Shown here piece after piece: positions 1,505 to 54,942 of a stretch of 64,000 nt of DNA. Below the pieces are notes generated by a model, which saw nothing but the letters and a program-made list of their open reading frames with translations, had not been told where the DNA came from and did no database searches. Source of the stretch: Siphonodentalium dalli (lineage: Eukaryota; Mollusca; Scaphopoda; Gadilida; Siphonodentaliidae); assembly GCA_032622095.1 (NCBI GenBank), contig CP136065.1, forward strand, positions 245,581,474 through 245,645,473, written 5' to 3'. The first letter of the stretch is position 1. Each line of letters starts with the position of its first letter. The position numbers and the translations under genes are program-made.

Positions 1505-4500
1505 GTGCAGGGACCAACATGGAGGGTGACTTGGGAGACAGGGACCAGCCTGGAGGGTGACTTGGGAGACAGGGACCAGCCTAAAGGGTGACTTGGGAGA
1601 CAGGGACCAGCCTAAAGGGTGACTTGGGAGACAGGGACCAGCCTAAAGGGTGACTTGGGAGACAGGGACCAGCCTAAAGGGTGACTTGGGAGACAGGGAC
1701 CAGCCTATAGGGCAACTTGGGAGACAGGGACCAGCCTAAAGGGTGACTTGGGAGACAGGGACCAGCCTATAGGGCAACTTGGGAGACAGGGACCAGCCTA
1801 AAGGGTGACTTGGGAGACAGGGACCAGCCTATAGGGCAACTTGGGAGACAGGGACCAGCCTAAAGGGTGACTTGGGAGACAGGGACCAGCCTATAGGGCA
1901 ACTTGGGAGACAGGGACCAGCCTAAAGGGTGACTTGGGAGACAGGGACCAGCCTATAGGGCAACTTGGGAGACAGGGACCAGCCTAAAGGGCGACTTGGG
2001 AGACTGGGACCAGCCTAAAGGGTGACTTGGGAGACAGGAAACAGCCTAAAGGGCAACTTGGGAGACAGGGACCAGCCTGGAGGGTGACTTGGGAGACTGG
2101 GAACAGCCTAAAGGGTGACTTGGGAGACAGGGACCAGCCTAAAGGGCAACTTGGGAGACTGGGACCAGCCTAAAGGGTGACTTGGGAGACTGGGACCAGC
2201 CTAACGGGTGACTTGGGAGACAGGGAACAGCCTAAAGGGTGACTTGGGAGACAGGGACCAGCCTAAAGGGTGACTTGGGAGACTGGGACCAGCCTAAAGG
2301 GCAACTTGGGAGACTGGGACCAGCCTAACGGGTGACTTGGGAGACAGGGAACAGCCTAAAGGGTGACTTGGGAGACAGGGACCAGCCTAAAGGGTGACTT
2401 GGGAGACAGGGAACAGCCTAAAGGGTGACTTGGGAGACAGGGACCAGCCTAAAGGGTGACTTGGGAGACAGGGACCAGCCTATAGGGTGACTTGGGAGAC
2501 AGGGACCAGCCTGGAGGGTGACTTGGGAGACAGGGACCAGCCTATAGGGTGACTTGGGAGACAGGGACCAGCCTAAAGGGAGACAGGGAACAGCCTATAG
2601 GGTGACTTGGGAGACAGGGACCAGCCTGGAGGGTGACTTGAGAGACAGGGACCAGCCTAAAGGGAGACAGGGAACAGCCTATAGGGTGACTTGGGAAACA
2701 GGGACCAGCCTGGAGGGTGACTTGAGAGACAGGGACCAGCCTATAGGGTGACTTGGGAGACAGGGACCAGCCTAAAGGGTGACTTGGGAGACAGGGACCA
2801 GCCTATAGGGTGACTTGGGAGACAGGGACCAGCCTGGAGGGTGACTTGGGAGACAGGGACCAGCCTATAGGGTGACTTGGGAGACAGGGACCAGCCTAAA
2901 GGTCGACTTGGGAGACAGGGACCAGCCTAAAGGGTGACTTGGGAGACAGGGACCAGCCTAAAGGGTGACTTGGGAGACCGGGACCAGCCTAAAGGGTGAC
3001 TTGAGAGACAGGGACCAGCCTATAGGGTGACTTGGGAGACAGGGACCAGCCTAAAGGGTGACTTGGGAGACAGGGACCAGCCTATAGGGTGACTTGGGAG
3101 ACAGGGACCAGCCTGGAGGGTGACTTGGGAGACAGGGACCAGCCTATAGGGTGACTTGGGAGACAGGGACCAGCCTAAAGGTCGACTTGGGAGACAGGGA
3201 CCAGCCTAAAGGGTGACTTGGGAGACAGGGACCAGCCTAAAGGGTGACTTGGGAGACAGGGACCAGCCTAAAGGGTGACTTGGGAGACCGGGACCAGCCT
3301 AAAGGGTGACTTGGGAGACCGGGACCAGCCTATAGGGTGACTTGGGAGACAGGGACCAGCCTGGAGGGTGACTTGGGAGACAGGGACCAGCCTATAGGGT
3401 GACTTGGGAGACAGGGACCAGCCTAAAGGTCGACTTGGGAGACAGGGACCAGCCTAAAGGGTGACTTGGGAGACAGGGACCAGCCTAAAGGGCGACTTGG
3501 GAGACCGGGACCAGCCTAAAGGGTGACTTGGGAGACAGGAAACAGCCTAAAGGGAGACAGGGAACAGCCTAGAGGGTGACTTGGGAGACAGGGACCAGCC
3601 TAAAGGGCGACTTGGGAGACAGGAAACAGCCTAAAGGGAGACAGGGAACAGCCTAGAGGGTGACTTGGGAGACAGGGACCAGCCTAAAGGGCGACTTGGG
3701 AGACAGGAAACAGCCTAAAGGGAGACAGGGAACAGCCTAGAGGGTGACTTGGGAGACAGGGACCAGCCTAAAGGGCGACTTGGGAGACCGGGACCAGCCT
3801 AAAGGTCGACTTGGGAGACAGGGAGCAGCCTATAGGGTGACTTGGGAGACCGGGACCAGCCTAAAGGTCGACTTGGGAGACAGGGACCAGCCTAAAGGGT
3901 GAATTGGGAGACAGGGACCAGCCTAAAGGGTGACTTGGGAGACAAGGAACAGCCTATATGGTGACTTGGGAGACAGGGACCAGCCTAAAGGGTGACTTGG
4001 GAGACAAGGAACAGCCTAAAGGGTGACTTGGGAGACAGGGACCAGCCTAAAGGGTGACTTGGGAGACAAGGAACAGCCTATATGGTGACTTGGGAGACCG
4101 GGACCAGCCTAAAGGTCGACTTGGGAGACAGGGACCAGCCTAAAGGGCGACTTGGGAGACCGGGACCAGCCTAAAGGGTGACTTGGGAGACAGGAAACAG
4201 CCTAAAGGGAGACAGGGAACAGCCTAGAGGGTGACTTGGGAGACAGGGACCAGCCTAAAGGGCGACTTGGGAGACAGGAAACAGCCTAAAGGGAGACAGG
4301 GAACAGCCTAGAGGGAGACAGGGAACAGCCTAGAGGGTGACTTGGGAGACAGGGACCAGCCTAAAGGGCGACTTGGGAGACCGGGACCAGCCTAAAGGTC
4401 GACTTGGGAGACAGGGAGCAGCCTAAAGGTCGACTTGGGAGACAGGGAGCAGCCTATAGGGTGACTTGGGAGACAGGGAGCAGCCTAAAGGTCGACTTGG

Positions 4501-7500
4501 GAGACAGGGAACAGCCTATAAGGTGACTTGGGAGACCGGGACCAGCCTAAAGGGCGACTTGGGAGACAGGGAACAGCCTAAAGGTCGACTTGGGAGACAG
4601 GGACCAGCCTAACGGGTGACTTGGGAGACAGGGACCAGCCTAAAGGGCGACTTGGGAGACAGGGACCAGCCTAAAGGGTGAATTGGGAGACAGGGACCAG
4701 CCTAAAGGGTGACTTGGGAGACAAGGAACAGCCTATATGGTGACTTGGGAGACAGGGACCAGCCTAAAGGGTGACTTGGGAGACCGGGACCAGCCTAAAG
4801 GGTGACTTGGGAGACAAGGAACAGCCTATATGGTGAATTGGGAGACAGGGACCAGCCTAAAGGGTGACTTGGGAGACAGGGACCAGCCTAAAGGGTGACT
4901 TGGGAGACAAGGAACAGCCTATATGGTGACTTGGGAGACCGGGACCAGCCTAAAGGGTGACTTGGGAGACAGGGACCAGCCTAAAGGGTGACTTGGGAGA
5001 CAGGGACCAGCCTATAGGGTGACTTGGGAGACAGGGACCAGCCTGGAGGGTGACTTGGGAGACAGGGACCAGCCTATAGGGTGACTTGGGAGACAGGGAC
5101 CAGCCTAAAGGGTGACTTGGGAGACAGGGACCAGCCTAAAGGGCGACTTGGGAGACCGGGACCAGCCTAAAGGGTGACTTGGGAGACAGGAAACAGCCTA
5201 AAGGGAGACAGGGAACAGCCTAGAGGGTGACTTGGGAGACAGGGACCAGCCTAAAGGTCGACTTGGGAGACAGGGACCAGCCTAAAGGGCGACTTGGGAG
5301 ACCGGGACCAGCCTAAAGGGTGACTTGGGAGACAGGAAACAGCCTAAAGGGAGACAGGGAACAGCCTAGAGGGTGACTTGGGAGACAGGGACCAGCCTAA
5401 AGGGCGACTTGGGAGACAGGAAACAGCCTAAAGGGAGACAGGGAACAGCCTAGAGGGTGACTTGGGAGACAGGGACCAGCCTAAAGGGCGACTTGGGAGA
5501 CAGGGAGCAGCCTATAGGGTGACTTGGGAGACAGGGAGCAGCCTAAAGGTCGACTTGGGAGACAGGGAACAGCCTATAGGGTGACTTGGGAGACCGGGAC
5601 CAGCCTAAAGGGCGACTTGGGAGACAGGGAACAGCCTAAAGGTCGACTTGGGAGACAGGGAACAGCCTAAAGGGTGACTTGGGAGACAGGGACCAGCCTA
5701 TATGGTGACTTGGGAGACAGGGACCAGCCTAAAGGTCGACTTGGGAGACAGGGACCAGCCTAAAGGGTGACTTGGGAGACCGGGACCAGCCTAAAGGGTG
5801 ACTTGGGAGACAGGGACCAGCCTATATGGTGACTTGGGAGACAGGGACCAGCCTAAAGGTCGACTTGGGAGACAGGGACCAGCCTAAAGGGTGACTTGGG
5901 AGACCGGGACCAGCCTAAAGGGTGACTTGGGAGACAGGGACCAGCCTATATGGTGACTTGGGAGACAGGGACCAGCCTAAAGGGCGACTTGGGAGACAGG
6001 GACCAGCCTAAAGGTCGACTTGGGAGACAGGGACCAGCCTAAAGGGCGACTTGGGAGACAGGGAGCAGCCTATATGGTGACTTGGGAGACAGGGACCAGC
6101 CTAGATGGTGACTTGGGAGACAGGAAACAGCCTAAAGGGTGACTTGGGAGACAGGGACCAGCCTATATGGTGACTTGGGAGACAGGGACCAGCCTAAAGG
6201 TCGACTTGGGAGACAGGGACCAGCCTAAAGGTCGACTTGGGAGACAGGGAGCAGCCTAAAGGTCGACTTGGGAGACAGGGACCAGCCTATAGGGTGACTT
6301 GGGAGACAGGGAGCAGCCTAAAGGGTGACTTGGGAGACAGGGAGCAGCCTAAAGGTCGACTTGGGAGACAGGGAGCAGCCTATAGGGAGACTTGGGAGAC
6401 AGGGAGCAGCCTATATGGTGACTTGGGAGACAGGGACCAGCCTATATGGTGACTTGGGAGACAGGGACCAGCCTAAAGGTCGACTTGGGAGACAGGGAGC
6501 AGCCTATAGGGTGACTTGGGAGACAGGGACCAGCCTAAAGGGTGACTTGGGAGACTGGGACCAGCCTATAGGGTGACTTGGGAGACAGGGAGCAGCCTAA
6601 AGGTCGACTTGGGAGACAGGGAGCAGCCTATAGGGTGACTTGGGAGACCGGGACCAGCCTAAAGGGCGACTTGGGAGACTGGGACCAGCCTATATGGTGA
6701 CTTGGGAGACAGGGACCAGCCTAAAGGTCGACTTGGGAGACCGGGACCAGCCTAAAGGGTGACTTGGGAGACCGGGACCAGCCTAAAGGGTGACTTGGGA
6801 GACAGGGACCAGCCTATATGGTGACTTGGGAGACAGGGACCAGCCTAAAGGGCGACTTGGGAGACAGGGAGCAGCCTATATGGTGACTTGGGAGACAGGG
6901 ACCAGCCTAGATGGTGACTTGGGAGACAGGAAACAGCCTAAAGGGAGACAGGGAACAGCCTAGAGGGTGACTTGGGAGACAGGGACCAGCCTAAAGGGTG
7001 ACTTGGGAGACCGGGAACAGCCTATATGGTGACTTGGGAGACCGGGACCAGCCTAAAGGGCGACTTGGGAGACAGGGACCAGCCTAAAGGGAGACAGGGA
7101 CCAGCCTAGAGGGTGACTTGGGAGACCGGGACCAGCCTAAAGGGCGACTTGGGAGACAGGGAGCAGCCTATATGGTGACTTGGGAGACAGGGACCAGCCT
7201 AGATGGTGACTTGGGAGACAGGGACCAGCCTAAAGGGAGACAGGGAACAGCCTAGAGGGTGACTTGGGAGACAGGGAATGGCCTAAAGGGTGTCAGGGAA
7301 CAGCCTAAATGGCGACTTGGGAGACAGGGACCAGCCTAGAGGGCGACTTGGGAGACAGGGACCAGCCTAGAGGGTGACTTGAGACAGGGACCAGCATAGA
7401 GGGCGACTTGGGAGACAGGGACCAGCATTGGGGGTGACTTGGGAGACACGGACCAGCCTTGTGGGTGACTTGGGAGACACAGACCAGCCTTGTGGGTGAC

Positions 7501-7575
7501 TTGGGAGACACGGACCAGCCTTGGGGGTGACTTGGGAGACACAGACCAGCCTATAGGGAGTTTTGGGAGATATCT
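1505..7575. repeat. 31-bp minisatellite, about 195 units
   Basis: The unit is tgacttgggagacagggacc plus agcctaaaggg (31 bp). A shortened 22-bp unit that lacks tgacttggg recurs in blocks at 2570-2690, 3540-3730 and 4190-4330. Units vary at a few positions (aaa/tat/gga/aga before ggg; aca/acc/act before ggg). The left edge (cagggaccaacatggagggt) and right flank (tttgtcccagggagaatcc) match the two halves of the hAT-like MITE at 40498-40965, so the array seems to be an expansion inside one copy of that family. Open frames here are by-products of the repeat. It fills two thirds of the intron between exons H and I. Confidence 0.97.
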
Positions 7576-14362: not shown

Positions 14363-14612
14363 GCCTTGAAATAGTGTGCCTGTCATTCGCAGAATGAGGT
14401 CCCCAGAGGGTGAATTTAGTGATGCTACCCCGCATAGCGGGCTAGCATCACCAAATTCACCCTCTGGGACCTCATTCTGCTTACACCTCAGCAGAATGAG
14501 GTTCCCAGAGGGTGAATTTGGTGATGCTAGCCCGCTATGTGGGGTAGCATCACTAAATTCACCCTCTGGGAACCTCATTCTGCAAATGACAGACAAACTA
14601 TTTCAAGGCTTG
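14363..14612. mobile_element. C-family MITE, complete palindromic form
   Basis: Ends gccttgaaatagtgtgcctg and ctatttcaaggcttg; inside are four alternating copies of the gagggtgaattt.gtgatgc block. Nested in the hAT-like element. Confidence 0.85.
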
Positions 14613-15190: not shown

Positions 15191-15441
15191 GTGTTGAAAT
15201 AGTGTGTCTGTCATTTGCAGAATGAGGTCCCCAGAGGGTGAATTTAGTGATGCTACCCCGCATAGTGGGCTAGCATCACCAAATTCACCCTCTGGGAACC
15301 TCATTCTGCTTACACCTCAGCAGAATGAGGTTCCCAGAGGGTGAATTTGGTGATGCTAGCCCGCTATGCGGGGTAGCATCACTAAATTCACCCTCTGGGG
15401 ACCTCATTCTGCAAATGACAGACACACTATTTCAAGGCTTG
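15191..15441. mobile_element. C-family MITE, complete palindromic form
   Basis: Nearly identical to the copy at 14363-14612, ends gttgaaatagtgtgtctgtc and acactatttcaaggctt. Confidence 0.85.
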
Positions 15442-19251: not shown

Positions 19252-22200
19252 TAATGTATCTAATAGCGTGTATGCGTAGTCACGTGATGTAGGGAGATAA
19301 TGTATCTAATAGTGTGTATGCGTAGTCACGTGATGTAGGGAGATAATGTATCTAATAGCGTGTATGCGTAGTCACGTGATGTAGGGAGATAATGTATCTA
19401 ATAGTGTGTATGCGTAGTCACGTGATGTAGGGAGATAATGTATATAATAGTGTGTATGCGTAGTCACGTGATGTAGGGAGATAATGTATCTAATAGTGTG
19501 TATGCGTAGTCACGTGATGTAGGGAGATAATGTATCTAATAGTGTGTATGCGTAGTCACGTGATGTAGGGAGATAATGTATCTAATAGTGTGTATGCGTA
19601 GTCACGTGATGTAGGGAGATAATGTATCTAATAGCGTGTATGCGTAGTCACGTGATGTAGGGAGATAATGTATCTAATAGCATGTATGCGTAGTCACGAG
19701 ATGTAGGGAGATAATGTATCTAATAGTGTGTATGCGTAGTCACGTGATGTAGGGAGATAATGTATCTAATAGCATGTATGCGTAGTCACGAGATGTAGGG
19801 AGATAATGTATCTAATAGTGTGTATGCGTAGTCACGTGATGTAGGGAGATAATGTATCTAATAGTGTGTATGCGTAGTCACGTGATGTAGGGAGATAATG
19901 TATCTAATAGTGTGTATGCGTAGTCACGTGATGTAGGGAGATAATGTATCTAATAGTGTGTATGCGTAGTCACGTGATGTAGGGAGATAATGTATCTAAT
20001 AGTGTGTATGCGTAGTCACGTGATGTAGGGAGATAATGTATCTAATAGTGTGTATGCATAGTCACGTGATGTAGGGAGATAATGTATCTAATAGTGTGTA
20101 TGCGTAGTCACGTGATGTAGGGAGATAATGTATCTAATAGTGTGTATGCGTAGTCACGTGATGTAGGGGGATAATGTATCTAATAGTGTGTATGCGTAGT
20201 CACGTGATGTAGGAAGATAATGTATCTAATAGTGTGTATGCGTAGTCACGTGATGTAGGGAGATAATGTATCTAATAGTGTGTATGCGTAGTCACGTGAT
20301 GTAGGGAGATAATGTATCTAATAGTGTGTATGCGTAGTCACGTGATGTAGGGAGATAATGTATCTAATAGTGTGTATGCGTAGTCACGAGATGTAGGAAG
20401 ATAATGAATCTAATAGTGTGTATGCGTAGTCACATGATGTAGGGAGATAATGTATCTAATAGTGTGTATACGTAGTCACGAGATGTAGGAAGATAATGTA
20501 TCTAATAGTGTGTATGCGTAGTCACGAGATGTAGGGAGATAATGTATCTAATAGTGTGTATACGTAGTCACGAGATGTAGGAAGATAATGTATCTAATAG
20601 TGTGTATGCGTAGTCACGAGATGTAGGGAGATAATGTATCTAATAGTGTGTATACGTAGTCACGAGATGTAGGAAGATAATGTATCTAATAGTGTGTATG
20701 CGTAGTCACGAGATGTAGGGAGATAATGTATCTAATAGTGTGTATGCATAGTCACGTGATGTAGGGAGATAATGTATCTAATAGTGTGTATACGTAGTCA
20801 CGAGATGTAGGAAGATAATGTATCTAATAGTGTGTATGCGTAGTCACGAGATGTAGGGAGATAATGTATCTAATAGTGTGTATGCGTAGTCACGTGATGT
20901 AGGGAGATAATGTATCTAATAGTGTGTATACGTAGTCACGAGATGTAGGAAGATAATGTATCTAATAGTGTGTATGCGTAGTCACGAGATGTAGGGAGAT
21001 AATGTATCTAATAGTGTGTATGCGTAGTCACGTGATGTAGGGAGATAATGTATCTAATAGTGTGTATGCGTAGTCACGTGATGTAGGGAGATAATGTATC
21101 TAATAGTGTGTATGCGTAGTCACGTGATGTAGGAAGATAATGTATCTAATAGTGTGTATGCGTAGTCACGTGATGTAGGAAGATAATGTATCTAATAGTG
21201 TGTATGCAAAGTCACGTGATATAGGGAGATAATGTATCTAATAGTGTGTATGCGTAGTCACGTGATGTAGGGAGATAATGTATCTAATAGTGTGTATGCG
21301 TAGTCACGTGATGTAGGAAGATAATGTATCTAATAGTGTGTATGCGTAGTCACGTGATGTAGGAAGATAATGTATCTAATAGTGTGTATGCGTAGTCACG
21401 TGATGTAGGAAGATAATGAATCTAATAGTGTGTATGCGTAGTCACGTGATGTAGGGAGATAATGTATCTAATAGTGTGTATGCGTAGTCACGTGATGTAG
21501 GAAGATAATGAATCTAATAGTGTGTATGCGTAGTCACGTGATGTAGGGAGATAATGTATCTAATAGTGTGTATGCGTAGTCACGTGATGTAGGAAGATAA
21601 TGTATCTAATAGTGTGTATGCGTAGTCACGTGATGTAGGAAGATAATGTATCTAATAGTGTGTATGCGTAGTCACGTGATGTAGGAAGATAATGTATCTA
21701 ATAGTGTGTATGCGTAGTCACGTGATGTAGGGAGATAATGCATCTAATAGTGTGTATGCGTAGTCACGTGATGTAGGAAGATAATGTATCTAATAGTGTG
21801 TATGCGTAGTCACGTGATGTAGGAAGATAATGTATCTAATAGTGTGTATGCGTAGTCACGTGATGTAGGGAGATAATGTATCTAATAGTGTGTATGCGTA
21901 GTCACGTGATGTAGGAAGATAATGTATCTAATAGTGTGTATGCGTAGTCACGTGATGTAGGAAGATAATGTATCTAATAGTGTGTATGCGTAGTCACGTG
22001 ATGTAGGAAGATAATGTATCTAATAGTGTGTATGCATAGTCACGAGATGTAGGGAGATAATGTATCTAATAGTGTGTATGCGTAGTCACGTGATATAGGA
22101 AGATAATGTATCTAATAGTGTGTATGCATAGTCACGTGATATAGGGAGATAATGTATCTAATAGTGTGTATGCGTAGTCACGTGATGTAGGGAGATAATG

Positions 22201-25200
22201 TATCTAATAGTGTGTATGCGTAGTCACGTGATGTAGGAAGATAATGTATCTAATAGTGTGTATGCGTAGTCACGTGATGTAGGAAGATAATGTATCTAAT
22301 AGTGTGTATGCGTAGTCACGTGATGTAGGAAGATAATGAATCTAATAGTGTGTATGCGTAGTCACGTGATGTAGGGAGATAATGTATCTAATAGTGTGTA
22401 TGCGTAGTCACGTGATGTAGGAAGATAATGAATCTAATAGTGTGTATGCGTAGTCACGTGATGTAGGGAGATAATGTATCTAATAGTGTGTATGCGTAGT
22501 CACGTGATGTAGGGAGATAATGTATCTAATAGTGTGTATGCGTAGTCACGTGATGTAGGGAGATAATGTATCTAATAGTGTGTATGCGTAGTCACGAGAT
22601 GTAGGAAGATAATGAATCTAATAGTGTGTATGCGTAGTCACGTGATGTAGGGAGATAATGTATCTAATAGTGTGTATACGTAGTCACGAGATGTAGGAAG
22701 ATAATGTATCTAATAGTGTGTATGCGTAGTCACGAGATGTAGGGAGATAATGTATCTAATAGTGTGTATACGTAGTCACGAGATGTAGGAAGATAATGTA
22801 TCTAATAGTGTGTATGCGTAGTCACGAGATGTAGGGAGATAATGTATCTAATAGTGTGTATACGTAGTCACGAGATGTAGGAAGATAATGTATCTAATAG
22901 TGTGTATGCGTAGTCACGAGATGTAGGGAGATAATGTATCTAATAGTGTGTATGCATAGTCACGTGATGTAGGGAGATAATGTATCTAATAGTGTGTATA
23001 CGTAGTCACGAGATGTAGGAAGATAATGTATCTAATAGTGTGTATGCGTAGTCACGAGATGTAGGGAGATAATGTATCTAATAGTGTGTATGCGTAGTCA
23101 CGTGATGTAGGGAGATAATGTATCTAATAGTGTGTATACGTAGTCACGAGATGTAGGAAGATAATGTATCTAATAGTGTGTATGCGTAGTCACGAGATGT
23201 AGGGAGATAATGTATCTAATAGTGTGTATGCGTAGTCACGTGATGTAGGGAGATAATGTATCTAATAGTGTGTATGCGTAGTCACGTGATGTAGGGAGAT
23301 AATGTATCTAATAGTGTGTATGCGTAGTCACGTGATGTAGGAAGATAATGTATCTAATAGTGTGTATGCGTAGTCACGTGATGTAGGAAGATAATGTATC
23401 TAATAGTGTGTATGCAAAGTCACGTGATATAGGGAGATAATGTATCTAATAGTGTGTATGCGTAGTCACGTGATGTAGGGAGATAATGTATCTAATAGTG
23501 TGTATGCGTAGTCACGTGATGTAGGAAGATAATGTATCTAATAGTGTGTATGCGTAGTCACGTGATGTAGGAAGATAATGTATCTAATAGTGTGTATGCG
23601 TAGTCACGTGATGTAGGAAGATAATGAATCTAATAGTGTGTATGCGTAGTCACGTGATGTAGGGAGATAATGTATCTAATAGTGTGTATGTGTAGTCACG
23701 TGATGTAGGAAGATAATGAATCTAATAGTGTGTATGCGTAGTCACGTGATGTAGGGAGATAATGTATCTAATAGTGTGTATGCGTAGTCACGTGATGTAG
23801 GAAGATAATGTATCTAATAGTGTGTATGCGTAGTCACGTGATGTAGGAAGATAATGTATCTAATAGTGTGTATGCGTAGTCACGTGATGTAGGAAGATAA
23901 TGTATCTAATAGTGTGTATGCGTAGTCACGTGATGTAGGGAGATAATGTATCTAATAGTGTGTATGCGTAGTCACGTGATGTAGGAAGATAATGTATCTA
24001 ATAGTGTGTATGCGTAGTCACGTGATGTAGGAAGATAATGTATCTAATAGTGTGTATGCGTAGTCACGTGATGTAGGAAGATAATGAATCTAATAGTGTG
24101 TATGCGTAGTCACGTGATGTAGGGAGATAATGTATCTAATAGTGTGTATGCGTAGTCACGTGATGTAGGAAGATAATGAATCTAATAGTGTGTATGCGTA
24201 GTCACGTGATGTAGGGAGATAATGTATCTAATAGTGTGTATGCGTAGTCACGTGATGTAGGAAGATAATGTATCTAATAGTGTGTATGCGTAGTCACGTG
24301 ATGTAGGGAGATAATGTATCTAATAGCGTGTATGCGTAGTCACGTGATGTAGGAAGATAATGAATCTAATAGTGTGTATGCGTAGTCACGTGATGTAGGG
24401 AGATAATGTATCTAATAGTGTGTATGCGTAGTCACGTGATATAGGAAGATAATGTATCTAATAGTGTGTATGCATAGTCACGTGATATAGGGAGATAATG
24501 TATCTAATAGTGTGTATGCGTAGTCACGTGATGTAGGGAGATAATGTATCTAATAGTGTGTATGCGTAGTCACGTGATGTAGGAAGATAATGTATCTAAT
24601 AGTGTGTATGCGTAGTCACGTGATGTAGGAAGATAATGTATCTAATAGTGTGTATGCGTAGTCACGTGACGTAGGAAGATAATGAATCTAATAGTGTGTA
24701 TGCGTAGTCACGTGATGTAGGGAGATAATGTATCTAATAGTGTGTATGCGTAGTCACGTGATGTAGGAAGATAATGAATCTAATAGTGTGTATGCGTAGT
24801 CACGTGATGTAGGGAGATAATGTATCTAATAGTGTGTATGCGTAGTCACGTGATGTAGGAAGATAATGTATCTAATAGTGTGTATGCGTAGTCACGTGAT
24901 GTAGGGAGATAATGTATCTAATAGCGTGTATGCGTAGTCACGTGATGTAGGAAGATAATGAATCTAATAGTGTGTATGCGTAGTCACGTGATGTAGGGAG
25001 ATAATGTATCTAATAGTGTGTATGCGTAGTCACGTGATGTAGGGAGATAATGTATCTAATAAAGTGTATGCGTAGTCACGTGATGTAGGGAGATAATGTA
25101 TCTAATAGTGTGTATGAGTAGTCACGTGATGTAGGGAGATAATGTATCTAATAGTGTGTATGCGTAGTCACGTGATGTAGGGAGATAATGTATCTAATAG

Positions 25201-25550
25201 TGTGTATGCGTAGTCACGTGATGTAGGGAGATAATGTATCTAATAGCGTGTATGCATAGTCACGTGATATAGGGAGATAATGTATCTAATAGTGTGTATG
25301 CGTAGTCACGTGATGTAGGGAGATAATGTATCTAATAGCGTGTATGCGTAGTCACGTGATATAGGGAGATAATGTATCTAATAGCGTGTATGCGTAGTCA
25401 CGTGATATAGGGAGATAATGTATCTAATAGTGTGTATGCGTAGTCACGTGATGTAGGGAGATAATGTATCTAATAGTGTGTATGCGTAGTCACGTGATAT
25501 AGGGAGATAATGTATCTAGTAGTGTGTATGCGTAGTCACGTGATGTAGGG
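19252..25550. repeat. 46-bp minisatellite, about 137 units, E-box in most units
   Basis: The unit is ataatgtatctaatagtgtg then tatgcgtagtcacgtgatgt then aggaag/agggag (46 bp). Most units carry CACGTG; a minority have CACGAG. Variants (tatacg, tatgcaaag, tgatatagg, aatgaatc) recur at spacings of exactly 2208 bp (48 units) and 2346 bp (51 units), showing duplication of long blocks. It lies in the intron between exons E and F, 1 kb from the exon F acceptor. Confidence 0.97.
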
Positions 25551-32417: not shown

Positions 32418-32667
32418 ACTTGAAATAGTGTGCCTGTCATTTTCAGAATGAGGTCCCCAGAGGGTGAATTTAGTGATGCTACCCCGCATAGCGGGCTAGC
32501 ATCACCAAATTCACCCTCTGGGGACCTCATTCTGCTTATATCTCAGCAGAATGAGGTTCCCCGAGGGTGAATTTGGTGATGCTAGCCGGCTATGCGGGGT
32601 AGCATCACTAAATTCACCCTCTGGGAACCTCATTCTGCAAATGACAGGCACACTATTTCAAGGCTTG
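32418..32667. mobile_element. C-family MITE, complete palindromic form
   Basis: cttgaaatagtgtgcctgtc to ggcacactatttcaagg, four inner blocks, as at 14363 and 15191. Confidence 0.85.
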
Positions 32668-40965: not shown

Positions 40966-41199
40966 AGGCAAATACATTTTTTTTCTATTGATAGATGAAA
41001 AAGTAAAACAATATCAAAGTTTGTCATTTTGTCTTTGACATTCAATACCATAATGATCGCCAGGAGGCATAATTGTTCAATCGATGTTGTATATTTTATA
41101 CAAACTTATACTTTTTTCATTTTTTTTTTACATGTCTGGATTAATAATCCCATTGGCGGAAATAAAAAAAACAAAAACTAAATTTATATTTTTTTTGAC

Positions 41200-41309
41200 T
41201 CGGGGAGAGCTTTCAGATGAATGGCAACAAGCCATATTTCCGACTAAATCCTGAAAAGTTACCCATAATTCTGCTGTGGTTAAGGGGTCGATTACTTAGG
41301 GCATTACTG
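41200..41309. mobile_element. A-family MITE, right half
   Basis: Begins at the loop (gactcggggagagctttcag) and ends gggcattactg, TA. Confidence 0.82.
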
Positions 41310-41310
41310 T

Positions 41311-41400
41311 ATGTGCACATCATATATGAGTGGCATGCGGGTATTCAGACACTGTGTTGTGAACACAGTGGTCTTTCGAATATGTATTAACCCTTTCAGT
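41311..41400. repeat. Duplicated 90-bp block, occupied copy
   Basis: tgtgcacatcatatatgagt ... ttcgaatatgtattaa matches 43382-43465 closely. Here the TTAA is followed by B2-type sequence (ccctttcagtgccaagtccg). Confidence 0.85.
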
Positions 41401-41440
41401 GCCAAGTCCGATTGTAGGGAAATCCGTAAAGCAAGTAATA
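41397..41440. mobile_element. B2-family TTAA element, left-end remnant
   Basis: ttaaccctttcagtgccaag tccgatt... stops being recognisable after about 40 bp. Confidence 0.6.
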
Positions 41441-41584
41441 AAAAATAAAATTCCCTGTGTGTGGATGAAAACTCTATGATTATTCGGATTCAAACCAGAT
41501 TTTCAATCACTTTATGGATTATGTTGACCTAATGGGAAAAGCACACCGAGAGGGAATATGGTGATGACATCACTGAGTACTTAC

Positions 41585-41754
41585 CGTCTTGACTCCGAGC
41601 GGAAATATGGTGATGGCATCACGGGTGTCTTTAATCTCAGCAAACAGTGATATTTTGTATTCATCGTAATCGGCACCAGCTGGAACGAACGCATCCATGA
41701 CATTCTCAACACCGAAACCCAAATCTATGTCAAGTGGATTATCCTTATGTCTCC
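41585..41754 (-). CDS. Exon B: REJ module, continuation
   Basis: This 170-bp minus-strand exon has acceptor tttcacag and donor gtaagt. It starts with two bases that complete the Gly codon of exon A and ends on a full codon (VKT). The reading includes LDIDLGFGVENVMDAF and YDEYKISLFAEIKDTRDA. This matches the REJ pattern of a Gly-rich turn, then a hydrophobic strand, then an extended strand of the type xYxISLxAEIxDxxxA. It directly continues exon A in frame, which supports both. The first 18 bases of the exon and its acceptor are also the repeat unit of a long tandem array that fills the adjacent intron (41737-42712). Confidence 0.87.
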
Positions 41755-42712
41755 CTGTGAAATTGACATGTATAATGTTAATGGACATGTATAACACAGA
41801 AACCCGGGTTGATTGATAACATGTATAACACAGAAACCCGGGTCGATTGATAGCAGATTATCCTTATGTCTCCCTGTGAAATTGACATGTATAATGTTAA
41901 TGGACATGTATAACACAGAAACCCGGGTTGATTGATAGCAGATTATCCTTGTGTCTCCCTGTGAAATTGACATGTATAATGTTAATGGACATGTATAACA
42001 CAGAAACCTGGGTCGATTGATCGCAGATTATCCTTGTGTCTCCCTGTGAAATTGACATGTATAATGTTAATGGACATGTATAACACAGAAACCCGGGTTG
42101 ATTGATAGCAGATTATCCTTGTGTCTCCCTGTGAAATTGACATATATAATGTTAATGGACATGTATAACACAGAAACCTGGGTCGATTGATAACAGATTA
42201 TCCTTGTGTCTCCCTGTGAAATTGACATGTATAATGTTAATGGACATGTATAACACAGAAACCCGGGTCGATTGATAACAGATTATCCTTGTGTCTCCCT
42301 GTGAAATTGACATGTATAATGTTAATGGACATGTATAACACAGAAACCTGGGTCGATTGATAACAGATTATCCTTGTGTCTCCCTGTGAAATTGACATGT
42401 ATAATGTTAATGGACATGTATAACACAGAAACCCGGGTTGATTGATAACAGATTATCCTTGTGTCTCCCTGTGAAATTGACATATATAATGTTAATGGAC
42501 ATGTATAACACAGAAACCCGGGTCGATTGATAGCAGATTATCCTTGTGTCTCCCTGTGAAATTGACATGCATAATGTTAATGGACATGTATAACACAGAA
42601 ACCCGGGTCGATTGATAACATGTATAACACAGAAACCCGGGTCGATTGATAACATGTATAACACAGAAACCCGGGTCGATTGATAGCAGATTATCCATAT
42701 GTCTCCCTGTGA
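41737..42712. repeat. 85-bp tandem array that copies the exon B acceptor
   Basis: The unit contains gattatccttgtgtctccct gtgaaattgacatgtataat and then gttaatggacatgtataaca cagaaacccgggtcgattga. Period is 85 bp, with shorter 29-34-bp subunits near 41810 and 42610-42665. About 11 copies. The first 18 bases (41737-41754) are coding sequence of exon B, and ctgtgaaa is its acceptor, so every unit brings another ttcacag|ggagacA-type acceptor. In the phase of exon A each upstream copy would run into TAA after about 20 codons. Confidence 0.95.
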
Positions 42713-42754
42713 TGTTGTTGGGGGAAAATGCTACAGTGACATATAATCCTTTTG

Positions 42755-43030
42755 TACAGTGAAAACTGTAATCTGCGGCCACCGTTGAGAACGGCCACCT
42801 TTCTTTACCGGCCGTATTGGCGATGTACAGACTGATTTTATTATATAAATGAACTGTCGTGAGCGGCCACCTGTCAAACGCGACCAACGAGTGGTATAAG
42901 TGGGCAAAAATAGAAAAATATACCCTTAATGTGCGGCCACTTTATTGTCCAAAAGTAAATATTTCGATAGTTTTCGAAAGAAACCATTGTAAACAGGTAA
43001 AGTCGACTTCCGGTTATAGCAGACACATCT
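42755..43030. mobile_element. Possible pogo/Tigger-like remnant
   Basis: gtacagtgaaaactgtaatc with repeated gcggccacc/acggccacc blocks is reminiscent of the ends of pogo-type Tc1/mariner elements (cagtg...cggccacc). No transposase frame and no second end could be confirmed. Confidence 0.35.
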
Positions 43031-43273
43031 CATCAATATTCATGAGTTGATTCGCTGTGCTCAGGCTTCATGGAAGCCCTTGTTGTGAGCATTGTTATAA
43101 AGAAACCTATCGCTTGGTTAATTAAATGCATGTGTCATCGAATGTCTGGCGATAAACAATGAATGAGTTGGCTATTCAATTAGAATGTATGAATGGAAGC
43201 CACTTGCCATGGGTTATGTTAAGAAAAGAAGGTTTATATAAACAAAGAATACAAACTGGCCTTATGTAAAGGA

Positions 43274-43360
43274 TAATGACTGAGTGAAGTGTCTGGGACC
43301 AAATAATCACCCAAGGCCGTGAGTGTTGGGCCCAGACACTTCACCAGGTCATTATCTGAC
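43274..43360. repeat. Imperfect inverted repeat
   Basis: gataatgactgagtgaagtg tctggg pairs with cccagacacttcaccaggtc attatc around a 33-bp loop. Confidence 0.6.
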
Positions 43361-43381
43361 TAATTAAAACCCACACACCTA

Positions 43382-43465
43382 TGTGCACATCATATATGAG
43401 TGGCATGCGGGTATTCGGACACTGTGTTGTGAAAACAGTGGTCTTTCGAATATGTATTAATTAAT
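43382..43465. repeat. Duplicated 90-bp block, empty copy
   Basis: Same block as 41311-41400 but continuing tatgtattaattaatgaatt, with no TTAA element after the target. Confidence 0.83.
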
Positions 43466-45698
43466 GAATTATAAGCTTTGCTGAACACCCATTAAAACCT
43501 ACTATCCAATAATTTTATTGGTTTGGCCTTTATACATCGCTGACCTGATAGCGAGCGGTTAGCAACTGTGCATGTGATATCTTAACACAATTTGCAGTCG
43601 TCACATTTCAGCATGGGCTGAATGCAAGTTACCATTAATCAGGAAAAAGTACAGTATTTTCCGTCACCTCATATTTATGGTCTGGCTTCCCCATTCATAA
43701 CCCAGACCCGCAAGATAAGAGTCATGCTATTGGGGTTTGCTGCTGTAGTGTGGACTCACGACATGCATATGAGATAATATTTTTTTCATTTTTATCTATT
43801 TCAGCCTTTTTTTTCGTATATGATTTCATATATTATTTGTTGAACGATTACTAGCTTGAATTTCAATAACCCTCATTTGGTAAAAAAAGGGACATGGTAT
43901 AACACGGTTTTCATTTGGGTGGGGCATCAAGCTTCGAAGTTTAAACTGCACCCCTCCATTCTGCAAACTGTCCTGCATCCCTTTTCGTGTTAGCAAACAG
44001 CATTTTTCAACTGGATTTCTTATTTTTCTCTTTCTTTTCTGTTTTGCACGTCCATTTTATGTTTGTTGTTGAGTGCGTTTTAATTGCTATTTTAGAGTAG
44101 ACACGATTACTTATCTTGGAACTTGAACTAATTATCGTTCTTTACATTCTATTATTTCTATAATATGACCTGGGGTGGGGGTTGTTTGGTCAAACTTATC
44201 ACACATGACAATCTGTCTCATCTAAGAGTTCTATGTATAAAACTTTTTTGTTTTGCTTGGCAATATTATATTTAAATATTGACGCGAAAATGTAGTTTAT
44301 GTTTTGGTATGGACAATTAGGAAATTCCAACTGCATTTGTAACCAAAGCTGGAAACTTCTATTTGGGCTGCAAGCATACAACTGGTAGACTTCAAGCTTT
44401 CCAATTGTTGTATATTTGTCTCGCCAACCCTCGTCTATGTGGTGATTTATGACACTTTTATTACAAATTTTCACTGAAATGTAAGAACGATTTAAATTTT
44501 AACATCAGATAAATGTCAACTTGTTGTTTCTTTTACAATTGATGAGTCATTAACTCATTGATATTTCCAACTATTGAACATTTTGATAAAAGTTTCGCAT
44601 GAAACCAGCTCAATCTACTCGCCATATCCTTGTCTTACATCTTTCGCAAATTTGGAATTCAATTTGATGTAATTCTTCACTGTTGATGTCACTGGGAGAT
44701 TAACATGTCGAATGTTATTAATCGACACGCTGTTTCCGCCCCTGGTTAAGTTGTCCTGCTAATATGCTATGATGCTGGTGGGTCCTGCTGATTTGCTATG
44801 ATGCTATATTGCTATTTTTCTAAAGTTGTTATTTAGCTGTGTAATATAGGTTGATAAATACACGATATATTAATATACCGGCTCCATATGCTCTGAAAAA
44901 TACAAACTGTTTTCAATTTTCGCACCGAAGTGAAACAAAAGCTCATTACTTCTACCACTTCAGGAATAGAATAACAAGGAACATTCTTTATTGTTTCGTG
45001 TTGTCCAGAATTTTCTGCATTCGATCACTTGAATTATTCTTTCTGGGCTTAACAGGCCGCATGAGAATTGTAGCGTATTTATCGACCTATGTTGATCCCT
45101 GGAACCTGACCGCAATTTAATAAAAAACGAGCATAATTTGGATCTTGAAATATCTTACAATATACATGTATGTTTTTCAATGTTTTATAAACATAATAGC
45201 TTTTCTCGATTCTTCATATTAGCCACAGGTCGTGAACATGACAACTAAGAAAAAATAAAGGTACATTTTCAAAACAGCATCAGTTTGCTCTACCAACATT
45301 ATAGTAATTCACCAGGACCAATCAGCATAAAAGCAGGACCACTTCACCGGGACGGTTTATTCCTCTTCCCAATGTGGTCATTATTTTACAGGTCATTATT
45401 TAGATAATGCACAGTTGAGCTAATAATGACTCGCAAAATAATTACCACCTCGTCGAGCTAACACCTCGGTGTCTTGAGTGGAAGACATTCGTCGGGATAA
45501 TACTCAAGCAACAACAATAGGTCGACCAGCAAGTGGGTTTTAAGTAGTATTATGAACTTTCAACAGTGAGAAAGTCTTTGATTGCATGACTGCCCCTCAT
45601 GTCCTCCAACCAACACCAGCACCCCATCCATTTCTCCGCACCCCACTCTGCCCCCAACGACGATGCACCTAATTATCAAAAATGAAACTGACCAGCTA
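43466..45698. other. Intron sequence, nothing recognised
   Basis: About 2.2 kb in the intron between exons A and B. Open frames at 44199-44474 (minus) and 44851-45120 (plus) show no domain and no usable phase. Composition is AT-rich. Confidence 0.35.
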
Positions 45699-45911
45699 CA
45701 GTAATGCCCTAATTAATCAACTCCTTAACCACAGCAGAATTATGGGTAACTTTTCAGGATTTAGTCGAAAATATGGCTTGTTGCCATTCATCGGAAAGCT
45801 CTCGGCGAGAGCTTTCCGATGAATGGCAACAAGCCATATTTCCGACTAAATCCTGAAAAGTTACCCATAATTCTGCTGTGGTTAAGGAGTCAATTAATTA
45901 GAGGATCACTG
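45699..45911. mobile_element. A-family foldback MITE, full length
   Basis: cagtaatgccctaattaatc to gaggatcactg between TA dinucleotides, arms nearly perfect. Confidence 0.9.
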
Positions 45912-46317
45912 TATCTGGCTTTTACAGACTTGTTTGGCCTGTTTTGTTGCTCTCAATGCTGAATTGTTATCATGAGGGATGTAAATACCATCCAAACAAG
46001 CAAAAGAAAAATGCAAAATGGCAGCCGTCATATGTTTTTTTCATTGATAATCATACAAATTCAATAGCTCCCATCTAGAGGTGATCCTAAACATGCCTGT
46101 ATAATTTTGAGAACCCCGGTCCATGACTGCGAGCGCTCCTTGCGACTCAAAGTCCGACATCAACGAAGTGACCCCAAAAAGTAAGCTCAAATGGACGCTG
46201 TATTCCAACGTCGCACTTATGAGACTATATGCACATTTTAAGTTCTCTATTGTGTATATATAGCAGAAATGGCACAGTGGCATGTTATATATACGTCTCC
46301 GAGATTTGCACTGTCCC

Positions 46318-46522
46318 AAAATGCATAATCGAGGTAACTGATGGGTGAACATCACCAACATCAATCTGATACTAGATCTCCCATAGCAGTTGAGGCCTGA
46401 GCAGAATGAGGTCCTCAGAGGGTGAATTTGGTGATGCTAGACCGTCGTGTGGGATAGCGTCACTAAATTCACGCTCTGGGGAACTCATTCTGCAAATGAC
46501 AGACACATATTTCAAGTCTTGA
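46318..46522. mobile_element. C-family element, right part
   Basis: Starts in the long-form spacer (aatgcataatcgaggtaact) and ends agacacatatttcaagtctt. Confidence 0.72.
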
Positions 46523-46550
46523 TAGTCACAAGACTGAATATCAACCATGA

Positions 46551-46998
46551 CAGTAATTCCCTAAATAATCGACTCCTTAACCCTTTCAGTGCCAGGTCCG
46601 ATTTTTGTATCAACACATATACCCTGTGCCAATGCATTCTCTTATATATGCGAGTCGACCATAGGTCGCCTCGCATATATAAGAGAATGCATTGGCCTAA
46701 CAATTTTTCATCATTTGTTATTATTTTTTACAATTTTTTACAATTTTAATAATTTTTTCTTATATTCTTTAACAGACTTATTTTGTAGGTTTAGTGCCAG
46801 GGAATCTTACGTTTTTCATGGGCATCAAAATTATTACTATGAATACTTGGTGATAGTTTTGAGTTATAACATGCCCCTAAGGTTTTATCCAGTTTGTTTT
46901 TAAATTTGCTATAGCATGCTTAAGCATACCCAAAAAATCCTGAAAAGTTACCCATAATTCTGCTGTGGTTAAGATGTGGATTATTTAGGGCATTACTG
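46551..46998. mobile_element. A-family MITE interrupted by a truncated B2 element
   Basis: Left arm cagtaattccctaaataatc gactcc (46551-46576) meets B2 at TTAA. The right arm tcctgaaaagttacccataa ... gggcattactg (46938-46998) resumes after the broken B2. The element ends, with its TA, seven bases from the exon A donor. Confidence 0.85.
46577..46937. mobile_element. B2-family TTAA MITE, right end deleted
   Basis: ttaaccctttcagtgccagg with one core hairpin and the spacer of 38643-39068; breaks at ttaagcatacccaaaaaa. The insertion target is the TTAA in the A-family arm (cgactccTTAAccacag). Confidence 0.83.
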
Positions 46999-47007
46999 TA
47001 TACTCAC

Positions 47008-47271
47008 CATAATACCTGTAACCGGCGATACCGTCATAATCAGTCCAATCAATGCATGTGAAAGTGACTTTCGTTCCTTCCTGATTGATGATCTCCGGGT
47101 CCATCGTGCATGTTCCGCCCATCGGTGGGTCATTAACCGTCAGTATAGCTGAAGCCATGCCGGGTTCACTTGCCCCTTCTGATTTGACAGATAGCTCAAT
47201 TCGGAACTGCTTTCTGTTCGGGATTTTAAGAAACATCTCCGGCCACACAGCAAGGCTGGGAGAGCTGATGC
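47008..47271 (-). CDS. Exon A: REJ module core of a PKD1-like protein
   Basis: On the minus strand this 264-bp exon follows a good acceptor (ttgccttgcag) and ends at donor gtgagta. It enters in phase 1 (two leading bases) and leaves with one base. The reading starts ISSPSLAVWPEMFLK and contains NDPPMGGTC, then FTCIDWTDYDG and GYRYYG. The NDPPxGGxC block and the Cys-x-x-Trp-x-Asp-x-Asp block are the classic conserved parts of the REJ domain in polycystin-1, PKDREJ and sea-urchin suREJ. The domain is extracellular and Ig/FNIII-like. The split Gly codon is completed by exon B. The donor lies only seven bases from the end of a TA-flanked foldback transposon. No earlier exon was found to the right, although 16.7 kb remain there. 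Confidence 0.87.
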
Positions 47272-47340
47272 CTGCAAGGCAAGTGATATAATAATAAATA
47301 ATAGGGCCAATATAAATAAATTGCTATTTTAGAAAAATGG

Positions 47341-47648
47341 GGGGACGGGACAGGGGGGGGGGGGGGTCGGAAAAAAAATTCAGGCACGTATGGCATTTTT
47401 CCCCTTTCGATCATTTTTTGTACCCACCCACTTCCACCGCCAAATTTGTTTCCGTTTTTGGCATTTTTTTCCGACCATTTTTTTTACACCCACCCCCCCC
47501 TTTTAACACTAAAACAGAGATTTGCGGGGGAATTCACTGTAAACAGCTGTATATGAATTTCTGTGCATACTATTTATCATGGATGTTAACATGGACATGT
47601 AAATAGGAATGAGTCATTTTTAGGTCATTCGGTCAAAAAAGGACGGGA
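47341..47648. mobile_element. G-family element, left half
   Basis: acagggggggggggggtcgg, tttttccgaccattttttt and aattcactgtaaacagctgt as in the copies at 9548 and 16462. It ends after gggtcattcggtc-like sequence. Confidence 0.7.
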
Positions 47649-49295: not shown

Positions 49296-51037
49296 TGTAC
49301 TATAAAATGTCCTGCTTTGTACTATATGTCCATACTGAGTACGGATGTAAAATGTCATGCTTTGTACTATATGTCCATACTGAGTACGGATGTAAAATGT
49401 CATGCTTTGTGCTACATGTCCATATACTGTGTACGGATGTAAAATGTCATGCTTTGTACTATATGTCCATACTGAGTTACGGATGTAAAATGTCCTGCTT
49501 TGTACTATATGTCCATACTGAGTACGGATGTAAAATGTCATGCTTTGTACTATATCTCCATACTGAGTACGGATGTAAAATGTCATGCTTTGTACTATAT
49601 GTCCATACTGAGTACGGATGTAAAATGTCATGCTTTGTACTATATGTCCATACTGAGTACGGATGTAAAATGTCATGCTTTGTACTATATGTCCATACTG
49701 AGTTACGGATGTAAAATGTCATGCTTTGTGCTATATGTCCATACTGAGTACGGATGTAAAATGTCATGCTTTGTGCTATATGTCCATACTGATTTACGGA
49801 TGTAAAATGTCATGCTTTGTGCTATATGTCCATACTGAGTACGGATGTAAAATGTCATGCTTTGTGCTATATGTCCATACTGAGTTACGGATGTAAAATG
49901 TCATGCTTTGTACTATATGTCCATACTGAGTACGGATGTAAAATGTCCTGCTTTGTGCTATATGTCCATACTGAGTACGGATGTAAAATGTCATGCTTTG
50001 TGCTATATGTCCATACTGAGTACGGATGTAAAATGTCATGCTTTGTGCTATATGTCCATACTGAGTACGGATGTAAAATGTCCTGCTTTGTGTGACATGT
50101 CCATACTGAGTACGGATGTAAAATGTCATGCTTTGTACTATATGTCCATACTGAGTACGGATGTAAAATGTCATGCTTTGTACAACATGTCCATACTGTG
50201 TACGGATGTAAAATGTCATGCTTTGTGCTACATGTCCATACTGAGTACGGATGTAAAATGTCATGCTTTGTGCTATATGTCCATACTGAGTACGGATGTA
50301 AAATGTCATGCTTTGTGCTACATGTCCATACTGAGTACGGATGTAAAATGTCATGCTTTGTGCTATATGTCCATACTGAGTACGGATGTAAAATGTCATG
50401 CTTTGTACAACATGTCCATACTGTGTACGGATGTAAAATGTCATGCTTTGTGCTACATGTCCATACTGAGTACGGATGTAAAATGTCATGCTTTGTGCTA
50501 TATGTCCATACTGAGTACGGATGTAAAATGTCATGCTTTGTACTATATGTCCATACTGAGTACGGATGTAACATGTCATGCTTAGTACTATATGTCCATA
50601 CTGAGTACGGATGTAAAATGTCATGCTTTGTACTGTATGTCCATACTGAGTACGGATGTAAAATGTCATGCTTTGTACTATATGTCCATACTGAGTACGG
50701 ATGTAAAATGTCATGCTTAGTACTATATGTCCATACTGAGTACGGATGTAAAATGTCATGCTTTGTACTATATGTCCATACTGAGTACGGATGTAAAATG
50801 TCATGCTTTGTGCTACATGTCCATACTGAGTACGGATGTAAAATGTCATGCTTTGTACTACATGTCCATACTGAGTACAGATGTAAAATGTCATGCTTTG
50901 TGCTATATGTCCATATTGAGTACGGATGTAAAATGTCATGCTTTGTGCTACATGTCCATACTGAGTACGGATGTAAAATGTCATGCTTTGTGCTACATGT
51001 CCATACTGAGTACGGATGTAAAATGTCATGCTATGGA
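49296..51037. repeat. 45-bp minisatellite, about 39 units
   Basis: Unit catgctttgtactatatgtc catactgagtacggatgtaaaatgt, 45 bp. Because 45 is a multiple of three, several frames stay open for hundreds of codons, the longest being 415 on the minus strand with repeats like MTFYIRTQYGHIVQS. No start context, splice site or composition change argues for translation. Units with a one-base insertion (gagttacgg) break frame early in the array. Confidence 0.96.
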
Positions 51038-51418
51038 CCAACTATAATACACCAGCAGTAAGCCATTATTCATAACTGGAATTCAGAGATTCATCAGAAT
51101 CATTGTATGTCAAAGTTTAAAAAAATGCATGGTGTTGCAGGATAGTGAATGATAAGCCTTTCAATTGAGTTAGTTTTCAGGTTTTCATGGTATTCCCATT
51201 ATATTTTCCACTGTAAAATGGTCATAATGTCAACGGCCCAGCACACAGACATCATGACGTCACTTAGCAGTGAAGAGGTCAACATCACATGCTTTGTTTC
51301 ACTGAAAAAAATGTTGAAACAAAATGCCAAACTTAAACTAGACCTATAAATCAAAAATAATGCTATTTTGTGGTTGAAAATTTCACATAATAGATTATTG
51401 CTATCCCATTAACTCTTC

Positions 51419-53699: not shown

Positions 53700-54740
53700 C
53701 CAACTTCCACTTCCAATCACGCCACAGAGATGAGATCAGGGCATTGTCAAAATTAACATTAAAACCAGCTATCACGCCACATTGATGAGATAAAAAAATG
53801 TCAAGCATATGGCATTGTCAAAATTAACATCAAAACCAGCTATCACGCACCAGAGAGGAGGTCGGAAAGCATCAAACATGGCATTGTCGAATTTAACCTA
53901 AAAACCAACTATCACGCAACATAGACGAGATCAGAAAGCGTCAAACATGGCATTGTCGAACCTAAAAACCAACTATCACGCAACATAGACGAGATCAGAA
54001 AGCGTCAAACATGGCATTGTCGAACCTAAAAACCAACTATCACGCAACATAGACGAGATCAGAAAGCGTCAAACATGGCATTGTCGAACCTAAAAACCAA
54101 CTATCACGCAACATAGACGAGATCAGAAAGCGTCAAACATGGCATTGTCGAACCTAAAAACCAACTATCACGCAACATAGACGAGATCAGAAAGCGTCAA
54201 ACATGGTATTATCAACCAACTATCACGCAACATAGACGAGATCAGAAAGCGTCAAACATGGTATTATAGACGAGATCAGAAAGCGTCAAACATGGTATTA
54301 TAGACGAGATCAGAAAGCGTCAAACATGGTATTATAGACGAGATCAGAAAGTGTCAAACATGGTATTATAGACGAGATCAGAAAGCGTCAAACATGGTAT
54401 TATAGACGAGATCAGAAAGCGTCAAACATGGTATTATAGACGAGATCAGAAAGCGTCAAACATGGTATTATAGACGAGATCAGAAAGCGTCAAACATGGT
54501 ATTATAGACGAGATCAGAAAGCGTCAAACATGGTATTATAGACGAGATCAGAAAGCGTCAAACATGGTATTATAGACGAGATCAGAAAGCGTCAAACATG
54601 GTATTATAGACGAGATCAGAAAGCGTCAAACATGGTATTATAGACGAGATCAGAAAGCGTCAAACATGGTATTATAGACGAGATCAGAAAGCGTCAAACA
54701 TGGTATTATAGACGAGATCAGAAAGCGTCAAACATCGTAT
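53700..54740. repeat. Two-stage minisatellite: 64-bp units, then 34-bp units
   Basis: First units carry aaaaccaactatcacgcaac atagacgagatcagaaagcg tcaaacatggcattgtcg (64 bp, four or more copies). From about 54245 only agacgagatcagaaagcgtc aaacatggtattat (34 bp, about 14 copies) remains. The left part (53700-53900) is degenerate. Confidence 0.95.
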
Positions 54741-54942
54741 TATCAAAACTAACCTTGAAACACTCATCTTTTTTTATATAACTTCAATATTAATATATCC
54801 TACCTGATTCTGTAGAGAAATAATTAGAATATTGTTTTCAAAACTGAAATCTTACATGTAGTTCATTTGCATTATAATAATTAGAGTTCAAAATTAGAGT
54901 TCACAATTTTGAAAATTATATGTATATACAAGTTATATTAGA

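Follow-up and report, generated by a model that had tools for sequence, protein, structure and literature searches.

An array of copied intron/exon boundaries in a minisatellite of a probable polycystin-1-like gene

Ahead of one coding exon in the window (the whole 64,000-nucleotide stretch of DNA analysed here), splice acceptors stand in a row within a minisatellite that runs on into the exon itself. Which of these acceptors is the true one, and is the row a regulatory device or a by-product of repeat growth? The explanation we favour, and regard as very probably correct, is a minisatellite of the type known as a mirage, whose neutral growth has reached exon B (Table 1); no regulatory role is needed.

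The gene and its true acceptor

Exons A and B join in frame (Y-Y-G-R-H-K-D) across an intron of 5253 nt, and the joined translation matches the REJ domain (PF02010) with E 3.1e-12 and 46.3 bits, above the curated cut-off of 25. Taken singly, the exon A open frame scores 37.4 bits and the exon B open frame gives no match. A search for solved-structure relatives of the joined product found none at E up to 1. Further along the same strand as exons A and B lie a PLAT match and a PKD_channel match, the latter within a 502-codon open frame; given this shared strand, it is most likely that the three matches belong to one polycystin-1-like gene of more than 100 kb.

At two other loci (L014 and L019), paralogous exons B share the entry phase of the window's exon B, and a conserved proline is the 24th full codon of exon B in all three genes. 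Homology thus supports exon B as a real exon. Because both paralogues begin it at the identical position and phase, the exon-proximal acceptor, at 41755/41754, appears to be the true one, as the first-pass annotation had proposed in nominating the last copy.

Table 1. Coordinates of the boundary array, its neighbouring exons and the kinesin copies used for comparison
Feature	Position	Strand	Description
Exon A	47008..47271	minus	264 nt; REJ; donor gtgagt; ends in phase 1
Exon B	41585..41754	minus	170 nt; entry phase 1, ends at a codon boundary; second part of the REJ-domain segment
Exon B donor	41584-41579	minus	GTAAGT, strong; consensus match at 8/9 positions
Predicted true acceptor	41755..41784	minus	Branch-point-like TTAAC; TTCACAG adjoining exon B; from sequence and paralogues
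Mirage array	41737..42712	minus	11 copies of acceptor plus exon start, ending with the real exon edge
Central block (copies 2-9)	41874..42553	minus	Eight 85-bp copies; mean pairwise identity 97.3%
Copy 10	41755..41873	minus	119 bp; one additional 34-bp piece
Copy 1 (distal edge)	42554..42706	minus	153 bp; two additional 34-bp pieces; TCACAG preceded by unique intron
34-bp exon-derived sub-repeat	42584..42685	minus	3 copies; 2 further at 41785-41852
Kinesin copy L124	C7, 209.77 Mb
Kinesin copy L125	C7, 207.99 Mb
Kinesin copy L126	C7, 209.48 Mb

Architecture and history of the array

The extent given in the first-pass annotation, with a start inside exon B, is correct: position 41737 is exon B base 18, and 42707-42712 are the TCACAG of the distal copy. 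The unit includes the acceptor of exon B, again as claimed, and the motif acag/GGAGACA occurs 11 times. The row of sites is therefore real, with the adjustment that the 'about 11' acceptors placed ahead of the true one are ten (exon-like starts at 42706, 42553, 42468, 42383, 42298, 42213, 42128, 42043, 41958 and 41873) and become 11 on counting the real one at 41754. Junctions are spaced by 153 bp, then eight times by 85 bp, then by 119 bp, so that the reported 85-bp unit describes the eight central copies and not the end units. TRF returns 85 bp × 9.4 copies with 96% matches and also picks out 34-bp runs, one at 41785-41852 and another at 42584-42685.

A full unit comprises ~28 nt of intron end, with the branch-point-like word TTAAC and no AG from there to CACAG, and ~57 nt of exon-derived sequence. 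The first 18 bases of the latter, the part credited to the unit at first pass, are indeed near-identical to exon B (17-18/18), but this count is an underestimate: bases 19-57 also match, in the same fixed register and frame, with 21-23 of 39 identical in each of the 10 copies. Read in frame, the unit gives GRHKDNLLSIDPGFCVIHVH-stop against GRHKDNPLDIDLGFGVENV in the exon, with seven of 13 residues identical past the common start. With the register fixed and the best end point taken, this similarity is reached by 1/20,000 dinucleotide shuffles and by 3/124,968 window positions. The unit therefore carries the decayed duplicate of a longer exon start, not 18 exon bases alone. The low identity over bases 19-57, 22/39, counts against the mirage-type reading.

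The repeat unit spans an intron/exon boundary, with the real exon, as identified by homology and paralogues, at one end and the copies in the intron, an arrangement characteristic of mirages. The centre of the array is homogenised and its edge copies are excluded: at base 8, copies 2-9 all have C, whereas copies 1 and 10, like the exon, have T, and no copies other than 1 and 10 contain extra 34-bp pieces. A 34-bp period also recurs in unrelated arrays (window 41785-41852, 42584-42685 and 54232-54743; L103, L124 and L126), and it forms a sub-unit within two different boundary arrays.

The real acceptor context (-30..+18) has 0/48 mismatches to copy 10, against 17/39 mismatches between exon bases 19-57 and the unit, which points to an old duplication followed by recent homogenisation. 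Through exchange with the array, the intron end and the opening 18 coding bases of exon B have recently been homogenised. The array may have begun as a simple tandem duplication, or as an insertion with a copy of the boundary on its flank; the two leave the same trace here because the distal intron side shares TCACAG alone with the unit (by eye, it shows no similarity to the unit's intron part past that word). A mobile-repeat origin was rejected, as a whole-genome search that skipped very common words returned at least 13 matches to the 85-bp unit, all inside the array and none elsewhere.

We propose that a tandem duplication captured the end of the intron and ~57 bases of the next exon, that repeated unequal exchange or slippage would then have both enlarged and homogenised the array. 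Homogenisation has lately extended into exon B, over its opening 18 coding bases. That the repeat number is instead an error of assembly, or that the locus is a pseudogene, seems highly improbable. The array is known from a single assembly; against such an error or a dead gene, differences between copies are patterned, the A+B frame is open and matches REJ, the PLAT match and the 502-codon channel frame lie on the same strand, and similar arrays occur at other exons.

Consequences for splicing

As the first-pass annotation had stated, use of an upstream copy leads to a stop in the inherited phase. This holds for all ten upstream acceptors, whose stops fall 140-907 nt ahead of the exon B donor; the frame is kept by the exon-proximal copy alone. 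Over the 48 positions of acceptor context, there are 0-2 mismatches to the true site in copies 2-10 and 17 in copy 1. Given this near-identity, local sequence cannot single out the true site from copies 2-10, and position must do so. For acceptor choice in the cell, we infer that the obvious positional cue is the strong donor at the end of exon B, which matches the donor consensus at 8/9 positions against 6/9 for the best site within the array. RNA structure hiding the upstream acceptors was rejected as a cue, since three units fold no better than shuffled sequence (z -0.44; 66 of 200 shuffles fold as well) and Rfam gave no match at gathering score within 41000-47400.

Under the mirage-type reading, the gene would stay functional by splicing to the exon-proximal acceptor, beside the sole strong donor, and transcripts using upstream copies would run into a premature stop codon and be eliminated. 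Such near-identical local sites may nevertheless cause real mis-splicing that affects expression, a possibility that counts against strict neutrality; the low-level noisy splicing that the first-pass annotation gave as an alternative may likewise occur. A rival reading is an array of decoy or poison acceptors: upstream sites would engage the spliceosome at some fixed rate, their stops would lead to decay, and array length would tune output. The stops lie far enough ahead of the donor for nonsense-mediated decay under its usual 50-nt rule, and the local context of copies 2-10 is nearly identical to that of the true site. We nonetheless consider this reading improbable, in part because the array has no strong donor, and return to it below with the evidence from other exons.

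The same weak donors bear on whether copies could be spliced in as extra small exons, running from an acceptor to a GTTTCT donor. Such a 36-nt stretch keeps phase 1 and contains no stop in 10 of 10 copies, and copies 4, 6 and 8 read CAG/GTTTCT. A study of amphioxus globins proposes intron gain from mirages (PMC3087553), and in fission yeasts introns are reported that consist of tandem repeats and contain cryptic splice sites (PMC3629103). Yet GTTTCT agrees with the donor consensus at 5-6/9 positions, compared with 8 for the real donor, and the intron remaining between adjacent 85-bp copies would be 49 nt only. A proper mini-exon donor within the unit was rejected, the matches being weak ones alone, and we regard exon birth at this locus as very unlikely.

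Boundary arrays at other exons and in other systems

Arrays that contain a splice edge were found at 14 of 114 sampled exons across the source genome (2.23 Gb, 9 contigs), that is, at 15 of 228 edges, divided into six acceptors and nine donors; these are rough figures, as the calls were made by eye and hit edges approximate exon edges. The samples are not random, and they include paralogous copies that do not count as independent cases (L065/L067; the C7 PLAT cluster). For the polycystin/REJ/PLAT families, 48 exon hits were taken; the family lists hold 51 (13, 12 and 26), from which the REJ hit in the window and three of the PLAT hits are omitted and to which one other exon is added. The myosin sample (26 of 85 matches) was hand-picked, omitting most of the near-identical copies at C4:274-275 Mb, and the kinesin sample (40 of 123 matches) took every third row.

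Six polycystin-family exons carry edge-containing arrays (L037, L038, L043, L047, L053 and L054, the last on both sides), and L038 is a PLAT exon that probably belongs to the window's own polycystin-1-like gene. An array lies within 60 bp at nine of the 48 hits in these families. Edge-containing arrays were also called at three of the 26 myosin exons (L065, L067 and L082) and at five of the 40 kinesin exons (L103, L109, L112, L117 and L124). In the arrays for which it was counted, the junction motif occurs 2 to 14 times per array, with the second L117 copy having lost its GT and the two at L043 counted by eye. The PLAT exon L054 (C7:210.034 Mb) has five acceptor and six donor junctions in its flanking arrays. 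Upstream of the myosin exon L082 (C4:291.689 Mb) are 13 further copies of acceptor plus exon start, and a near-identical TGTATTTTACCC-CAG acceptor stands at either end of that array. In a ranking of PDB matches for one myosin exon, 3i5f, 2ec6, 2os8 and 1dfk, squid and scallop entries, score together with further scallop-type entries at 147.5-142.9 bits, the next match at 127; for a second exon the top match (112.2 bits) is nearly tied with Myosin-7 (110.0), a vertebrate-type entry. Together with the size of the genome, 2.23 Gb against ~0.5 Gb in Branchiostoma, the first ranking hints at a mollusc host. Searches for mollusc haemocyanin (PF14830) and GFP (PF01353), run with no positive control, gave no match and carry little weight.

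A single decayed edge copy is present at six more exons outside the 14 (L046, L051, L056, L057, L111 and L115), L046 and L056 looking like copies of one another. Three arrays near an exon edge that do not contain it (L034, L052 and L058) were not counted, nor was L089, which shares four exon bases only; the ambiguous L113 is also outside the 14. BLAST found second copies at L014 and L015, and at L088, L096, L098, L102 and L121 outside or barely at the hit.

Scored in 61-bp windows, arrays touch 17 of the 228 hit edges (7.5%) and 12,698 of 132,822 intron windows centred >60 bp from any hit (9.6%), so that on these rough figures exon edges are not enriched for arrays. Inside hits, arrays cover 692 of 28,245 bases. 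Arrays thus seem to grow regardless of exon edges and to be weeded out mainly inside exons, and we suggest that they would extend over intron and exon edge alike, persisting where one proper site remains.

These data bear directly on the decoy or rate-control role that the first-pass annotation had suggested, and they speak against it. The same structure occurs on the acceptor and the donor sides of polycystin/PLAT, myosin and kinesin exons; the samples hold no fewer donor-side than acceptor-side arrays (9 versus 6 edges), and contact at exon edges is not above that in introns. Lancelet mirages have moreover been suggested to leave normal splicing undisturbed (PMC3087553, PMC3902484). Occurrence on both sides, without edge enrichment, leads us to prefer neutral growth over a built decoy, and the array presumably lacks a function.

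Near-identical kinesin copies on C7 offer a ready comparison for array growth or collapse. L124 has at least five junctions and L126 at least four, both lower bounds because the sequence pieces may start in or near arrays, and L125 has one, with GTGACCAGTATA common to intron and exon on either side of the acceptor. Copy number therefore changes at the same exon, with L125 being either the starting state or a collapsed one.

More tentatively, and as a claim that may well prove too broad, minisatellite growth in this genome could ignore exons, with about 1 in 15 sampled splice edges copied, and exchange could go on rewriting the ends of coding exons and providing spare splice sites, from which shifted edges as well as new exons and introns would continually arise. 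The array described here, together with those at 14 of the 114 exons sampled, suggests that such structures appear wherever tandem repeats grow fast, carrying repeat turnover into coding sequence. They also constitute a natural experiment on splice-site choice, since a single true site, even one in a muscle-type myosin gene, can have up to thirteen extra near-identical junctions beside it. In genomes of this sort they may lead gene prediction astray.

Arrays of period >=15 cover 34% of the window, which includes very long minisatellites at 1508-7570 (31 bp × 199), 19252-25550 (46 bp × 137) and 49303-51032 (45 bp × 38); a long open frame at 49794-51041 falls within the last. A dispersed inverted-repeat element (GAATGAGGTCCCCAGAGGGTGAATTTAGTGATGCTA...) is found at window positions 14389-14583, 15217-15412 and 32444-32638 and in the flanks of L081, L089, L096 and L121, and looks like a small non-autonomous transposon.

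Among known systems, tandem exon duplication is an internal duplication that includes a splice boundary; the present array differs in duplicating the exon's 5' third only, with no copy that has its own strong donor. A promoter minisatellite (PMC3039753) and a set of fish introns (PMC3045353) were set aside as parallels, the excerpts of both describing no copied exon edges. The minisatellite of IFI6 (6-16, G1P3) bears splice-site copies at an exon edge, as here; its donors are repeated and its units serve as donors in transcripts (PMC4526556, citing Turri 1995), whereas here acceptors are repeated and upstream use breaks the frame. The fission yeast repeats, proposed as an origin of new introns (PMC3629103), resemble the present array in being tandem repeats that bear cryptic splice sites in an intron of a coding gene. 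They differ in that the boundary copied in our array belongs to an intron and an exon that were already there and is conserved in paralogues.

The closest counterparts are the amphioxus mirages. In the globin genes these are tandem copies of intron/exon boundaries with homogenised centres and variable length; in BflGb6 the 3' end of an intron and the 5' part of an exon are repeated, and RT-PCR suggests undisturbed splicing (PMC3087553). A further report adds a mirage in PGBD5, where one predicted exon within the repeats is left unresolved, and cites Adh and TnC (PMC3902484). In the literature searched, a partial library, no report of mirages under that name outside lancelets was found. The amphioxus cases (BflGb6/BflGb9, Adh3, troponin C and PGBD5) share with the present array minisatellite-like boundary copies, a homogenised centre and excluded edges, and both boundary types, acceptor and donor, occur among them and in this genome. 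Allelic length variation and RT-PCR are on record for the amphioxus mirages, while the present array is known from the sequence of one assembly. Here, unlike there, the gene is polycystin-1-like, the host is probably not a lancelet and array mirages are present at 14 of 114 sampled exons. The structure is thus of a known kind, a mirage; the finding exceeds one locus, and its simplest account is neutral.
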